The notes beneath the pieces were generated by a model. That model did no database searches. It was not told the DNA's origin and saw nothing but the letters and a program-made list of their open reading frames with translations. A stretch of 22,990 nucleotides of DNA from IMG/VR virus record IMGVR_UViG_3300009161_000248, positions 1-22,990 of that record. One strand, written 5' to 3'. The position numbers and the translations under genes were made by a program. Source of the DNA: a virus. Shown in pieces: positions 2,724-20,909 of this stretch; within the stretch, counting starts at the first letter, position 1; every line of letters begins with the position of its first letter.

Positions 2724-4969
2724 TGTGGCGTTCCTTGCGGTGGCATTTGTTCCATACCTTGCGGTGGCATCATTTCAGGTGGCATTTCCGGTGGCATCTG
2801 TTCCATTCCCTCTTGGGGCATTTCGGACATACCGGGCATAGATTCTTCGCGCATGTCCGGCATTTGGTTCATCATGCCTTGCGATTCTATCGCCGCTGCA
2901 ACCACACCCATTGCAATATCTTGTATCTGTTCTTCACTCATTCCGGCCTGCACCGCGCTAATGCGTTTAGTTTCCGCGTCGTAAGCTTTGACTTCGGCCT
3001 CAAACTCTTTGACCTTCAGCGTCTGCGCTTCCATCGACTTGTTGACGTTTTGCAGCATGCCGTGCATCTGCTCCATCTCTTTAGCCATAGCCTGCATCTG
3101 CTGGTTGGCCGCTTGAAGCGCAGGATCGTCCTCATTGGACAGCAGTTTCGGGTCGATAGTCTTGGCAAACCGTGCGGCCATTTCCTGCGCGCCCGGCCAA
3201 TCCATGTGTTTGATAAAGAGATCGCCGGCCACCGCCCACAGTTGCGGGTTGCCTTGCAGCAGTTGGCTCATGGCGTCGAGCGACTCCTGCCGCTTGGTCA
3301 TGTAGCTCGGGCCGGTAGTTACCGCAACGTCGTATTTGCCGACATTGGGGTTGTAAATCTTCTTGATAACAATGCCCTGCTCGTTCTCAATCTTCTTGAC
3401 CGCCATTGGTTGCGTCGGGTCAATCATAGCCTGGTCGGTTTCGCCATCCAGACCGATGATGCGAGCAATGCGTTGCGTGTCGTAAATCTTCGGAATCAGA
3501 TCGACCAGTTGCCGCGTCGCGTAGCGAATGGCGCGCGCCAAGTTGTCTACGTAGTGATAAGTGCCCGTATCCGACTGCTTTTCCCGCGCCAGAATAGCTC
3601 GCCCGGAGCGTTCGTTGCTGGTTGCCCCAAGGCTAGAGTCATATTGCCCCGTTGAGCTTTTAATGTCGTCTGCCGCCCCCGCTTTGGCTTGCAACAGACC
3701 ACTGGAGGCCATTGGCGGCTGTGACCGCGCCGGCAACGGTAGCACGCCGCCTTGTCCGTCGGTTACGTCGGGGTTAACTTCCAGATACGGCCAGTTGTTG
3801 ATGTTGGCCGTTTTCCACTGCGTTTCGTAACCCTCAAACTGACCGCCGTAGCCAATAAACGGTGCCTTCGGCGCCAGCGCCAGCATTTCTGCTTCTTGGC
3901 TAACCCAATAGTTATACATCCGTTGGGCGTCTTTGGCGTTTCGCACCAGCCCGCTGACGTACATACGGCCATCTATCTCGAATTCGTTGCCAATTACGCG
4001 GATAACGGGGATATATTTGCCCGCCCAATCGCGTTCTTCCAGCACCTCAAAACCGTTGGTTTTGCACCATTTGACCGACCTAACGTCCACATCTCGGGTC
4101 TTTAGAGGCTTTAAACCCATCATTTCGGCCTGTTTGGCCTCCGGCGAGCCAGCCATTGCGGTGATGCCGCTGTGATACTGGTGCAGTTTCTTGGCTTCAT
4201 GCTTGATGTAGAAGTATTCCGCAATCCGCACTGTGTCTTGGTTAATCCACGCGTTTAGCTGCCCGTCGCCCACGCCGTAGGCTAGGCTTGACAGCGGTGC
4301 CGCGTTAGGAAACTGGCGTTCGTAGTCGTCTTTGGTGATTTCTTGATTGATAAAACACCATTCGGCATCCGAACCGCACGGGTCTTGGATCGTCGGGTCC
4401 ATATAGACGCTAAACGAGTCTCGAATACGCCCAATCCGCAGGTCTTGCTCAAAAGTGTTGTCGTCGCAGTATTCCGTCAGGATGCGAAAGTAACCTTCGC
4501 CAAACGTCACCTGGTTGTCGCACGCCGTGTCGTAGGCTACGTCAGCGTCCGAGATATACTCTATGTGCCGCACCAAACCGTTGAATATCTCGGCCACCTC
4601 AATGTCGGCCTTGTCGTCAGCGGGGATAACCTTGCCACTTGGCCGGTTCTGCCGCTGGTCGTTGGTCACTTGCAACACATGCTGCGGCAGCTTGTTGATG
4701 GTCAGGCAGGGGCGCGCGTTAATCGTCTGGCCTTGCACCGAACCGCGTGTTGCCAGCACATCTGCCGGCCATTGCCACTGGTTGTCGGGCGAGGCCGCGC
4801 GGAAGCGCAGGTCGTCCAGTTCGTCCTCACGGGAATCCGAATACGCCGAGATCGCCATTGTGAGGCGTGTGCGCATGGTTGCCAGCATCTCGCCATTGTC
4901 ACGGTCGGACTTAGTGCCGCCCGACGCCACGGCGCCGGCTTCGTTAATGCCTGTGTCCTGATAGGCCAC
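2720..4969 (-). CDS. Portal protein (P22 gp1-like)
   Basis: A 749-aa protein, close to the length of P22-type portals (about 725 aa). The portal forms the dodecameric ring at the DNA entry vertex on which the terminase docks. Recognisable segments are ARPCLTINKLPQHVLQVTND near residue 85, FNGLVRHIEYISDADVAYD near residue 140, and VTFGEGYFRIL just after, all characteristic of this family. About residues 620-690 are predicted coiled coil (Gln/Met/Glu/Lys rich). The last 60 residues are a low-complexity Met-Pro-Glu-Gln tail (MPPEMPPEMMPPQGMEQMPP). The start is GTG at 4969-4967, sharing one base with the TAG of the upstream small gene and preceded by AAGGGC at a good distance. It follows the terminase genes, the usual order. 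Confidence 0.93.
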   Translation of the reverse strand: MAYQDTGINEAGAVASGGTKSDRDNGEMLATMRTRLTMAISAYSDSREDELDDLRFRAASPDNQWQWPADVLATRGSVQGQTINARPCLTINKLPQHVLQVTNDQRQNRPSGKVIPADDKADIEVAEIFNGLVRHIEYISDADVAYDTACDNQVTFGEGYFRILTEYCDDNTFEQDLRIGRIRDSFSVYMDPTIQDPCGSDAEWCFINQEITKDDYERQFPNAAPLSSLAYGVGDGQLNAWINQDTVRIAEYFYIKHEAKKLHQYHSGITAMAGSPEAKQAEMMGLKPLKTRDVDVRSVKWCKTNGFEVLEERDWAGKYIPVIRVIGNEFEIDGRMYVSGLVRNAKDAQRMYNYWVSQEAEMLALAPKAPFIGYGGQFEGYETQWKTANINNWPYLEVNPDVTDGQGGVLPLPARSQPPMASSGLLQAKAGAADDIKSSTGQYDSSLGATSNERSGRAILAREKQSDTGTYHYVDNLARAIRYATRQLVDLIPKIYDTQRIARIIGLDGETDQAMIDPTQPMAVKKIENEQGIVIKKIYNPNVGKYDVAVTTGPSYMTKRQESLDAMSQLLQGNPQLWAVAGDLFIKHMDWPGAQEMAARFAKTIDPKLLSNEDDPALQAANQQMQAMAKEMEQMHGMLQNVNKSMEAQTLKVKEFEAEVKAYDAETKRISAVQAGMSEEQIQDIAMGVVAAAIESQGMMNQMPDMREESMPGMSEMPQEGMEQMPPEMPPEMMPPQGMEQMPPQGTPQ

Positions 4970-17623: not shown

Positions 17624-17646
17624 AGACTTTTTTAGCGTGTTAGGAT
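17617..17646 (+). promoter_or_regulatory. Candidate rightward promoter for the VRR-NUC block
   Basis: TTGTCA (17617-17622, 5 of 6), an 18-bp spacer, TAGGAT (17641-17646, 4 of 6). Its -35 overlaps the -35 of the stronger leftward promoter by five bases on the opposite strand. Expected start near 17653, about 20 bases before the ATG at 17673. Confidence 0.5.
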
Positions 17647-17672
17647 TCGGTCGTATCACAAAGGAAGCCAAC

Positions 17673-17984
17673 ATGCTAGAAAAAGAAATCGAACAGTATT
17701 TTGATTGGGTTGTGCGGGTTAACGGCGGGCAAACCTACAAGTTTCGTTCACCCGCGCAGCGCGGTGTGGCAGATTGCATCGCCTGTTTGCCGAATGGGGC
17801 GACGTGGTTTGTGGAACTGAAAAAGCCCGGCGGTCGGCTATCCAAGCTGCAAGGCTTGTTTGCCGAGGACATGCGCCAATTGGGCCAACGGTATGCTTGC
17901 CTATGGACAAAGGAACAGGTGGATGTATGGATGCTAGACCAGCAAAATACTTTGCACACCCGCCTTACCGCGCCGAGGACTTAG
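17673..17984 (+). CDS. VRR-NUC domain nuclease
   Basis: A 103-aa protein; the ATG at 17673 is preceded by AAAGGAAG, while an upstream GTG in the same frame overlaps the promoter and is rejected. The VRR-NUC fold of the PD-(D/E)XK superfamily is shown by RGVADCIACLPNG (D34), WFVELKKPGGRLSKLQ (E48, K50, Q60) and the following helix. Stand-alone VRR-NUC proteins in phages of this type are structure-selective nucleases, probably acting on replication or recombination intermediates. It is the first gene of the rightward block and overlaps the next gene by 58 bases. Confidence 0.9.
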   Translation: MLEKEIEQYFDWVVRVNGGQTYKFRSPAQRGVADCIACLPNGATWFVELKKPGGRLSKLQGLFAEDMRQLGQRYACLWTKEQVDVWMLDQQNTLHTRLTAPRT

Positions 17985-18130
17985 GCGGCACGATAGGGTG
18001 GTGGGGCGTGATGAACCGTAACGGGGTCAATTGCTTGACCTTTGCAAGTCAACCTGGCGCTGTGGTGACTAACGAAGCCAACGCGATACATATAGCGAAA
18101 GAGTGGAATGAATTACTACAACGAGTTTGA
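17927..18130 (+). CDS. 67-aa protein bridging VRR-NUC and methyltransferase genes
   Basis: Starts at ATG 17927 (MDARPAKYFAHPPYRAEDLG), with AGGTGG close upstream. It contains GGTIGWWGVMNRNGVNCLTF and ends [15 protein letters not shown]. The start lies 58 bases inside the VRR-NUC gene and the end lies 23 bases inside the methyltransferase gene, so it forms an overlapping chain with both. The composition is protein-like (aromatic core, amphipathic C-terminal helix). I recognise the GWWGVMN...N...[14 protein letters not shown] pattern only as a small conserved phage-type protein; no function is assigned. Confidence 0.65.
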   Translation: MDARPAKYFAHPPYRAEDLGGTIGWWGVMNRNGVNCLTFASQPGAVVTNEANAIHIAKEWNELLQRV

Positions 18131-19109
18131 TCCTTACGCCGCACAGTGGCTGTGGAATTTAATTGACGCAGGGCATATCGCCAAGGGCGATGTAGACACA
18201 AGGAGCATCAAGGATGTTAGAGCCAGTGATCTTACCGGATACGTGCAGTGCCATTTCTTCGCCGGCCTTGGTGGCTGGAGCCACGCCCTGCGCCTTGCCG
18301 GATGGCCCGACGACCGACCTGTTTGGACGGGCAGTTGCCCATGCCAACCCTTCAGCGCCGCAGGTACCCAAAAAGGCACCGCTGATGATCGACACCTCTG
18401 GCCTGTCTGGTTCAATCTCATCCGCGAGTGCCGCCCTGGAGTCGTCTTTGGTGAGCAAGTTGAAGCAGCGGTTAAACACGGATGGCTCGATCTTGTTCAA
18501 ACTGACCTGGAAGGAGAAGGTTACGCCTGCGGGGCGGTTGGTCTGCCGGCTGGCGGCGTCGGGGCACCGCACATCCGACAACGACTCTGGTTCGTGGCCG
18601 ACGCCGCAAACAATGGACACCTTGCCGCCGATGGATTACGAGAAACGCTTGAACCATCCGGGCAGGCCGGGGCGCACGGTGTCGGGCAATTTGCGCGAGG
18701 TGGTGACGTTGACCAGTTGGCCGACAGCCAGTGCGAGGGATTGGAAGGATACGACGGGGATGGCGACGACCGGAACGAACCCGGACGGGTCAACGCGCAG
18801 CCGGCTAGATCAGTTGCCCCCCGTAGCGGGGTTAGCCGCTTGGACAACCGCATCAGCAACGGACGGAACGCGCAGCGGGACGATGACTCCGAACATGACC
18901 GGCAGCTCTCTGACACAACAATCAACATTAGTTTCTGGTCTGACTGCGACTGGCTCCCCTGCATCGACGGAAAAGCGCGGCCAGTTGAACCCGGCACATT
19001 CCCGTTGGCTCATGGGGCTACCGCCAGAGTGGGACGCCTGCGCGCCTACGGTAATGCCATCGTCCCGCAAGTCGCGCAAGTCTTTATAGAAGCGTATCTT
19101 GATTCTTAG
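18108..19109 (+). CDS. DNA C5-cytosine methyltransferase
   Basis: A 333-aa enzyme transferring methyl from S-adenosylmethionine to C5 of cytosine in DNA. Motif I FFAGLGGW at residues 50-57 (SAM binding); motif [11 protein letters not shown] at 75-83 with catalytic C79; motif VI appears as FGEQV (E116) where most relatives have ENV; motif [14 protein letters not shown] at 157-166; motifs [21 protein letters not shown] at 309-326. The region between about 167 and 290, where target recognition normally lies, is low-complexity (Gly, Asp, Arg, Asn) and is simultaneously read in another frame (see next entry). The start is ATG 18108 with only a moderate GAGTGG site. The likely role is self-modification against host restriction. 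It overlaps the helicase start by 11 bases. Confidence 0.9.
18214..19089 (+). CDS. Nested 291-aa reading frame inside the cytosine methyltransferase gene
   Basis: This frame lies wholly within the methyltransferase gene, one base ahead of its frame, and stays open for 291 codons. It has a better ribosome site than the outer gene: AAGGAG at 18200-18205, eight bases before the ATG. Its protein is not random-looking: [20 protein letters not shown] at 63-82, [20 protein letters not shown] at 93-112, three related units ([10 protein letters not shown] at 127, [13 protein letters not shown] at 168, [11 protein letters not shown] at 209) and the end [20 protein letters not shown] then [10 protein letters not shown]. 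From memory, proteins with the SWPTP...RDWKD units and the LNPxHSRWLMG...SSRKSRK ending occur in many phages and prophages next to or overlapping cytosine methyltransferases. I therefore treat it as a real dual-coding gene. Function unknown; it is Ser/Thr-rich with a basic C-terminus. Confidence 0.6.
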
Positions 19110-20430
19110 ACCTTACCAAGAAATAGCCGCCGACTTCCTTTACGAGTCGGACAGGGCGATGATTCTCGCACCCGTTGGGGCGGGCAAGACCGCGCTGACC
19201 TTGACCGCCATGCGCGACATGCTGGCGGCGGGCGAGGTGCAGCGGTTCTTGGTCGTGGCGCCAAAGCGCGTAGCCGAGTCGGTCTGGCCGACGGAGGCCA
19301 AGCTATGGACACCGGGCCTGTCACTGGCGGTCGCCACCGGCACGCCGGCGCAGCGCGTCAAGGCGCTACACGCTAATGTGCAGATCGTGGTCGCCACCTA
19401 CGACAACCTGCAATGGCTGGCCGAGCAACCGTTGCGCTTCGATGGTGTGGTGTTTGACGAACTGACGCGGCTTAAGAATCCGTCCGGCAAGCGGTTCAAG
19501 GCGCTGCTGAAGGTGCTGGACGCTATCCCGATTCGGTGGGGCTTGACGGGTAGCTTTACCAGCAACGGGCTGGAGGATGTATTCGGCCAGTGCAAGGTGA
19601 TCGACCAGACGCTACTCGGGCGCAGCAAAGGTGCCTTCTTGCAGCAGTATTTTCATTGCATCAACCGGGATTACGGCGATTGGGAGCCGCGCGCCGATGC
19701 GCTGCCGATGGTGATGGAGCGCATTAAGCCGGCTACCTTCGTCTTGGACGCGGGCGAATACAAGGACAAGCTGCCGCCGCTGCACATCGTCGAGATGCGC
19801 TGCACGATGGAGATGTGGGAATACAAGGCCATGAAAAGAGATTTTATGGTGCAGTTCCCCGACGCCCAGGCCGTAGCGGCCAATGCCGGGGTCGTCACCG
19901 GCAAGCTGCAACAGATGAGCAGCGGTTTTGTTTACGACACTTGCACAACGCCAAGCGACCGTCCGGGCAAGTTCACCACCACCAAGTCGGCGGTCTGGTT
20001 TTCTGACCACAAGTTTGAGGCGCTGGCCGATCTGTTGGCCGAGAACCAGCACGCCAACACGATCATCGCCTACCAATACCAAGAGGAACTGGCCGAACTA
20101 CAGCGCCGCTATCCCGGCGCCGTGACGTTGGACGAGCCGGACGCCATCGACCGCTGGAACGCCGGCAAGGTCAAGCTGCTGCTGGTGCATCCGAAGTCTG
20201 CCGGCCACGGCCTGAACCTGCAATTCGGTGGTTGTCACATGGTGTTTCTGTCGCTGCCGTGGTCACTGGAACTGTTTGAGCAGACCTACGGGCGCCTGCA
20301 CCGCAGCGGCCAACGGCACGACGTATGGGTTTACGTCCTGCTGACCGAGGACACTATCGACGAGAAGATTTACGTAACACTGCACGACAAACGCTCTTTA
20401 TCTGACTTAGCAATGGATTCTTTAAAATGA
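19099..20430 (+). CDS. SNF2-type (SF2) DNA helicase/translocase
   Basis: A 443-aa ATPase of the SNF2-like SF2 class found in phage replication modules. Motif I APVGAGKT at 24-31, motif II FDELTRLKN at 119-127 (DELT instead of DEAH), motif III GLTGSF at 148-153, motif V HPKSAGHGLNLQFGG at 364-378 and motif VI QTYGRLHRSGQ at 395-405 with both Arg. The start is TTG at 19099 ([17 protein letters not shown]), chosen because the family begins with the LRPYQ motif near the N-terminus; it overlaps the methyltransferase end by 11 bases. The likely role is ATP-driven remodelling or branch migration during phage recombination and replication. The stop overlaps the next ATG in ATGA. Confidence 0.92.
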   Translation: MILRPYQEIAADFLYESDRAMILAPVGAGKTALTLTAMRDMLAAGEVQRFLVVAPKRVAESVWPTEAKLWTPGLSLAVATGTPAQRVKALHANVQIVVATYDNLQWLAEQPLRFDGVVFDELTRLKNPSGKRFKALLKVLDAIPIRWGLTGSFTSNGLEDVFGQCKVIDQTLLGRSKGAFLQQYFHCINRDYGDWEPRADALPMVMERIKPATFVLDAGEYKDKLPPLHIVEMRCTMEMWEYKAMKRDFMVQFPDAQAVAANAGVVTGKLQQMSSGFVYDTCTTPSDRPGKFTTTKSAVWFSDHKFEALADLLAENQHANTIIAYQYQEELAELQRRYPGAVTLDEPDAIDRWNAGKVKLLLVHPKSAGHGLNLQFGGCHMVFLSLPWSLELFEQTYGRLHRSGQRHDVWVYVLLTEDTIDEKIYVTLHDKRSLSDLAMDSLK

Positions 20431-20909
20431 TTACACAACAATATTTGCAGCATCTATTTTCTTACGTTGATGGGCTTTTATACTGGAAAATTTCTCGCTC
20501 ACATTGCATCCACGTCGGCGATTTAGCGGGGTGCGGACTAAAAAATGGGCGCAGAACCATACATATTGACGATCGCATTTACTATTTGCACCGGCTTGTA
20601 TTTCTATACCACTATGGTTGGTTGCCTAGGGAGATAGACCACATTGACGCTAACCCCAACAATAGCCGCGTAAAGAACTTACGCGCAGCGACTAGAACTG
20701 AAAATCAGTACAACGCTCGTTTGCGCTCAGACAACCTATCTGGTGCAAAGAATGTCCAATGGTACAAACAGACTAAAAAATGGCGCGTTGTTTTAAGGGT
20801 AAATAAGACCCGCAAGCACATTGGTTTCTTTAGCGATTTTGAACTGGCAGAACTTGTCGCTACGGAAGCCCGGGATAAATTTCACGGCGCATTTGCAAGG
20901 AGCAAATAA
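20427..20909 (+). CDS. HNH homing-type endonuclease with AP2-like DNA-binding domain
   Basis: A 160-aa protein. The HNH core is at about residues 52-96: LHRLVF (H55), EIDHIDANPNNSRVKNLRAA (D71, H72, D74, N79, N84), then TENQYN. Residues 107-139 (KNVQWYKQTKKWRVVLRVN, then IGFFSDFELA) resemble the AP2-type DNA-binding module found in free-standing phage homing enzymes. It would nick or cut related phage DNA lacking the gene and so spread itself. Its base composition is clearly more AT-rich than the helicase upstream, a sign of recent arrival. It is nevertheless coupled to the helicase by ATGA and to the next gene with a one-base frame change at TAAATG. Confidence 0.9.
   Translation: MITQQYLQHLFSYVDGLLYWKISRSHCIHVGDLAGCGLKNGRRTIHIDDRIYYLHRLVFLYHYGWLPREIDHIDANPNNSRVKNLRAATRTENQYNARLRSDNLSGAKNVQWYKQTKKWRVVLRVNKTRKHIGFFSDFELAELVATEARDKFHGAFARSK

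Follow-up and report, generated by a model that had tools for sequence, protein, structure and literature searches.

A virus record of 22,990 bases (IMGVR_UViG_3300009161_000248), called the window here, carries a cytosine methyltransferase gene inside which a second long reading frame stays open. This arrangement raised two questions: whether the inner frame is a gene, and, if it is, what its product has to do with the methyltransferase that surrounds it.

Arrangement of the nested locus

The coordinates of the two genes and of their parts are listed in Table 1. The outer protein matched Pfam PF00145 above the cut-off (E 3.3e-14) and phrog_363 over residues 1-331 (E 2.6e-82), and the residues P78, C79, F82, and S83 of its motif IV were invariant in alignment A1. 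The inner protein matched phrog_1008 at positions 28-285 of 329 (E 1.9e-26). The first-pass annotation, made from the letters alone, had described a 291-codon frame one base out of register with the methyltransferase, preceded by AAGGAG at a distance of eight bases and encoding SWPT..ARDWKD-type repeats, and each of these features was reproduced. The inner start lies 106 bases 3' of the outer start, and SWPT/ARDWKD-type units were located at inner residues ~127, 168-179, and ~210; the WPTP-type units of the inner frame were conserved in alignment A2. At the ribosome-binding site, the outer Arg-Ser pair was encoded as AGG-AGC/T in 24 of 67 relatives, and AGG made up ~8% of the Arg codons elsewhere in these genes. 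A site of at least four bases stood before the chosen inner start in 74 of 96 relatives, a count that is biased upward because the start was partly chosen by the ribosome-binding site criterion.

Table 1. Positions of the two overlapping genes and their motifs in the window
Feature	Position	Strand	Basis
Outer gene: C5-cytosine methyltransferase of 333 aa with motifs I-VIII and X, proposed as catalytic subunit	18108..19109	+	
Ribosome-binding site AAGGAG of the inner gene	18200..18205	+	sequence; 8 bases 5' of ATG
Inner gene in the +1 frame: 291 aa, proposed as recognition subunit with the recognition region and motif IX; begins with ATG at 18214, stop codon ends at 19089	18214..19089	+	
Outer-frame motif IV SCPCQPFS, catalytic Cys	18333..18356	+	sequence; alignment A1
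Outer-frame motif VIII GAPHIRQRL	18561..18587	+	sequence; conserved in alignment A1
Outer-frame variable stretch, residues 170-277, where the recognition domain is expected	18615..18938	+	pLDDT, dN/dS, profiles
Inner-frame repeat unit	18715..18750	+	sequence; further units begin near 18592 and 18841
Inner-frame motif IX	18985..19032	+	hhalign to single-chain methyltransferase residues 334-352
Outer-frame motif X	19026..19073	+	hhalign to single-chain methyltransferase residues 359-380

Among the neighbours, the upstream ORF at 17637-17984 resembles a VRR-NUC nuclease, and the downstream ORFs at 19099-20909 resemble an SNF2-type helicase and an HNH-type endonuclease; the methyltransferase-helicase gene order also occurs in Kagunavirus. 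The motif order in the first part of the outer protein (18108-18356) seems to be rearranged: by eye and along the hhalign path, a II-like and a III-like segment (GDVDTRS) precede FFAGLGG (motif I), which is followed by PCQ (IV). Separate searches with the rearranged segments gave no significant match.

Conservation and distribution of the inner frame

An open inner frame could be an untranslated by-product, caused by base composition and the outer protein sequence, and the DNA is fairly GC-rich, with other spurious long ORFs in the window. However, when the synonymous codons of the outer gene were shuffled so that the outer protein and the codon counts were preserved, 3-4 stops appeared per gene; the mean in the inner stretch was 3.72 against 0 observed, and the stretch was open in 112 of 20,000 shuffles. 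The reverse shuffle, in which the inner codons were exchanged, gave 5.3 stops in the outer frame, which remained open in 5 of 5000 trials. In 34 relatives, a set fetched with the outer protein only, there was no +1 stop between codon 45 and motif X in 25, against 0.8 expected. In the other nine, stops were found at codon 53 (in L143 also at codon 88), 5' of a later inner start, or near motif X, and stops within about seven codons of motif X are the inner gene's own end; none of these 34 relatives selected by the outer gene alone had a stop inside the inner gene. The +2 frame was full of stops and showed no stop depletion, the +1 frame of the downstream SNF2-type helicase, examined as a control in 43 homologues, had 8.8 stops per 250 codons, and the nested frame of Paenibacillus phage Xenia was also open, over 236 codons. 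Since the inner frame is also under selection, as described below, we regard the by-product explanation as hardly credible.

By tblastn, the inner protein was found in 214 phage records and the outer protein in 374, and the nested pair was present in phages and prophages from many bacterial groups. The inner profile retrieved 80 genome-contig loci, and in every one of them the methyltransferase lay in the expected frame. Among 274 genomes of one class that were drawn independently, phrog_1008 occurred in 10, one of which was the genome on which the draw was centred, and always in the +1 frame inside a methyltransferase. No standalone inner gene was found in the genome contigs or in the 274-genome draw, a search that divergent ones would escape. 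A search of E. coli genomes with the K1ind2 gene gave no more than a partial match of 10%, in 10 genomes. Annotation of the pair is uneven: both genes are annotated in K1ind2, a single 663-base ORF named 'methyltransferase' is annotated at the inner position in NTEC3, and neither gene is annotated in SAP012. A search of open-licence papers found none that describes the nested pair.

Selection in the two frames

Selection was estimated from 23 non-overlapping pairs of relatives at 80-99.5% identity by simple site counting, not with the published OLGenie; bootstraps resampled codons, and phylogeny was handled solely by the use of non-overlapping pairs. The inner dNN/dNS was 0.58 in the catalytic part, 0.50 in the recognition stretch, and 0.51 in the C-terminal part, against 0.82-1.00 for the helicase control. 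The inner dSN/dSS was 0.12 in the catalytic part and 0.08 in the C-terminal part; in the recognition stretch it was 0.69 with a wide interval and is uninformative. Set beside these inner-frame ratios, the helicase control gave 0.82 and 0.78. In pairs at 70-80% identity, the inner signal was less pronounced, at 0.74-0.78 in the first two zones.

The outer frame behaved differently in the recognition stretch, where its dN/dS was 1.18 (1.02-1.41), and the inner frame of the close pairs was under purifying selection even where the outer one evolves freely. In pairs at 88-95% identity, the outer codon positions 1, 2, and 3 of this stretch differed at 0.241, 0.115, and 0.086, respectively. These rates are reversed relative to a normal gene, as would be expected if the constraint lay on the inner frame. 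Both frames are thus coding and under selection. The synonymous shuffles, the helicase control, and selection together ruled out a chance ORF, and the inner frame is a real, widely conserved coding sequence.

Homology of the inner protein to single-chain methyltransferases

The methyltransferase of mycobacteriophage ShiLan carries WPTP-type repeats, 'LAPAFSEWMMGWPAGWVT', and motif X in one frame, and it matched both phrog_363 and, over residues 196-388, phrog_1008. Profile comparison aligned inner residues 127-275 with residues 200-352 of the ShiLan-type enzymes (probability 96%, E 3e-9). In hhalign comparisons with single-chain methyltransferases, the inner C-terminus fell on the position of motif IX (probability 94%, E 1.6e-7) and the inner middle on the recognition region (probability 69%, E 4.5e-5), and the outer C-terminus fell on the position of motif X with a modest score at the right position (probability 42%, E 2.6e-4). 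In 12 column-shuffled controls, E was 0.13 or worse. The outer middle (residues 166-276) had no match in the single-chain enzymes. The motif IX pattern of C5 enzymes is L-x-P ... M-G-x-P, and we apply the label 'motif IX' here on the basis of this residue pattern and of location, the segment following the recognition region and preceding motif X. Against solved structures, the single-chain IX-X segment gave only chance nanobody matches and did not match HhaI directly, and the inner profile gave no match.

In structure prediction, the outer core modelled well and matched HhaI, and outer residues 170-277 had a pLDDT of 31-46. The inner protein modelled poorly as a single chain (mean 59); it had one better part, a helix at residues 70-90 with strands at 95-118, and showed short helices at motif IX. 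A fold search with this model, which is too poor to use, gave only chance matches.

Motif IX and the target-recognition domain between motifs VIII and X are therefore absent from the outer protein alone and have their counterparts in the inner frame. Because the inner protein shares homology with single-chain enzymes in the recognition region and motif IX, the two frames are most likely the halves of one enzyme. The same homology weakened the candidate of an unrelated second protein. An overprinted protein with its own accessory, regulatory, or anti-defence function, no part of the methyltransferase, would account for the inner N-terminal third, for which profile comparison detected no counterpart in single-chain methyltransferases. 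It would also suit Pseudomonas phage PMG1, in which the outer gene is interrupted 5' of the inner start and the intact inner ORF is annotated alone, and the prophage locus L207, where the outer match is truncated. Such a protein is nevertheless unlikely, given that what the outer protein lacks is what the inner protein resembles, and that no inner gene occurred without a methyltransferase in the genome loci or in the 274-genome draw.

These results also bear on what the first-pass annotation had made of the inner frame. Its proposal of long-term dual coding was strongly supported by the conserved +1 frame, start, and ribosome-binding site, by selection on both frames, and by occurrence in phages and prophages from many bacterial groups; the absence of stops inside the inner gene of the relatives, the constraint estimated for each frame, and the phrog_1008 match of the 291-aa product with its 214 phage records came from checks that it had suggested. 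Its impression that the repeat-bearing outer stretch is dictated by the other frame agrees with an outer dN/dS of about 1.2, a constrained inner frame, and the low pLDDT. The view that the outer gene has all catalytic motifs needs revision, since motif IX and a recognition region are found in the inner frame instead, and the picture of a complete methyltransferase beside a separate second product was not supported.

Nested, split, and single-frame forms

The set of motifs is distributed over the two frames, and fused, split, and nested versions of these modules all occur. The nested form, which is that of most phages, was found in the window, in Kagunavirus, in phage Xenia, and in aquatic phages such as L302. 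The split form, seen in Gordonia phage Upyo, L269, L273, and other actinophage-type loci, has motifs I-VIII in one ORF and the recognition region, motif IX, and motif X in a +1 ORF. The single-frame form is that of the ShiLan type. The +1 frame of ShiLan contains a 153-codon stretch that matches phrog_1008 positions 44-172, and this match suggests, but does not prove, that the single-frame form was derived from a two-frame ancestor. Single-frame actinophage-type enzymes (L260 1505-2167 and L256 1595-2128) have a long +1 open stretch like the N-terminal part of the nested protein; that of L260, like that of ShiLan, matches phrog_1008, and these stretches may be relics of a two-frame ancestor.

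The two frames might alternatively yield one chain by programmed frameshifting, with a +1 slip after motif VIII and a slip back before motif X. The motifs do alternate between the frames in the right order, and single-frame relatives such as ShiLan are known. However, two slips would be required, the inner gene is provided with a start and a ribosome-binding site of its own, and its N-terminal part (zone ovN), which lies upstream of any slip, is itself under selection. Moreover, the outer frame stays open throughout the recognition stretch, and the first ORF of the split form simply ends. We consider this mechanism very unlikely and retain two separate polypeptides as the preferred reading.

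Several relatives showed irregularities of their own. A poly-G tract in the recognition stretch had G8, G9, and G10 in 7, 10, and 1 of 18 closely related virus contigs (L353-L370), respectively, and tracts were also present at L102 3292, L108 3146, and L109 3112; no poly-G tract of this kind is present in the window. L353 and L366 (G9) and L362 (G10) were identical over 1213 flanking bases, and the G9 tract shifts both frames out of register together. The G8/G9/G10 tract looks like a phase-variable switch, and homopolymer or assembly error is also possible. A second poly-G tract (G7-G9) directly after motif IV was found at L006 2656, L008/L009 2656, L011 2656, and L013 2655; at this tract, the outer match of L008/L009 (G9) and L011 (G7) splits into two frames. 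In L103, both frames are broken between motifs IX and X by an insert (about 3400-3830) that codes for a Cys-rich protein resembling an HNH endonuclease. The outer frameshift of PMG1 (L003 1880-2800), whose annotation has the inner ORF only, and an in-frame TGA in the outer frame at L091 3467 each leave the inner frame open, and both may be sequencing errors. That the loci form a widespread family of obligate heterodimers in which the recognition stretch of the catalytic gene is filler set by its partner, whose forms interconvert by frameshifts and in some lineages are shifted in both frames by poly-G, is a broader proposal to which we give an even chance.

A probable two-subunit methyltransferase and its known counterparts

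From sequence comparison, the locus probably encodes a two-subunit C5-cytosine DNA methyltransferase, both subunits of which would be read from the same DNA in two frames. The outer frame would give the catalytic subunit with motifs I-VIII and X, and the inner +1 frame, translated from its own ribosome-binding site, would give a recognition subunit with the target-recognition region and motif IX. With both frames translated, the two subunits would come together, like those of natural split C5 enzymes, as a single active methyltransferase with sequence specificity, and each would be needed for catalysis. The biological role would probably be escape from host restriction. If this is true, one sequence has to meet the demands of two proteins that must also fit each other, and the locus would offer an unusually clean, naturally replicated system for the origin and persistence of overlapping genes, for which the fused, split, and nested relatives could serve as controls. 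The apparent absence of a recognition domain in such phage methyltransferases would also be explained. Many records call only one of the two genes and would need corrected annotation, and recoding of the annotated gene for expression would destroy the second subunit.

In M.EcoHK31I, a C5 methyltransferase of two polypeptides, the large subunit has motifs I-VIII and X and the small subunit motif IX, and prediction places the recognition domain in the large one (PMC3404938). This enzyme (YGGCCR) is the closest known system and has, at the sequence level, the same split into I-VIII and X on one side and IX on the other, a likeness of motif division only. The division of labour is not identical, because the recognition domain there is predicted in the large subunit, whereas the homologous region here is in the small, inner protein; furthermore, M.EcoHK31I is part of a restriction-modification system and the nested pair is found in phages. 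The two genes of M.EcoHK31I also overlap in different frames. In M.AquI (CYCGRG), motifs I-VIII are in one polypeptide and motif IX is in the other (PMC3404938). The catalytic motifs I-VIII and motif IX are thus on separate polypeptides, as here, but motif X of M.AquI goes with motif IX and its variable region is divided between the subunits, an arrangement like the split actinophage form (Upyo, L273) and unlike the nested one. The ShiLan gp70 type shares the WPTP-repeat recognition region, motif IX, and motif X with the nested pair, although all its motifs are in one frame. By profile, the inner and outer proteins belong to phrog_1008 and phrog_363, respectively, both named 'DNA methyltransferase'; PHROGs lists the two halves as separate families, and these entries do not state the nested relationship. 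Unlike the precedents M.EcoHK31I and M.AquI, the inner gene here is almost wholly nested in that of its partner.
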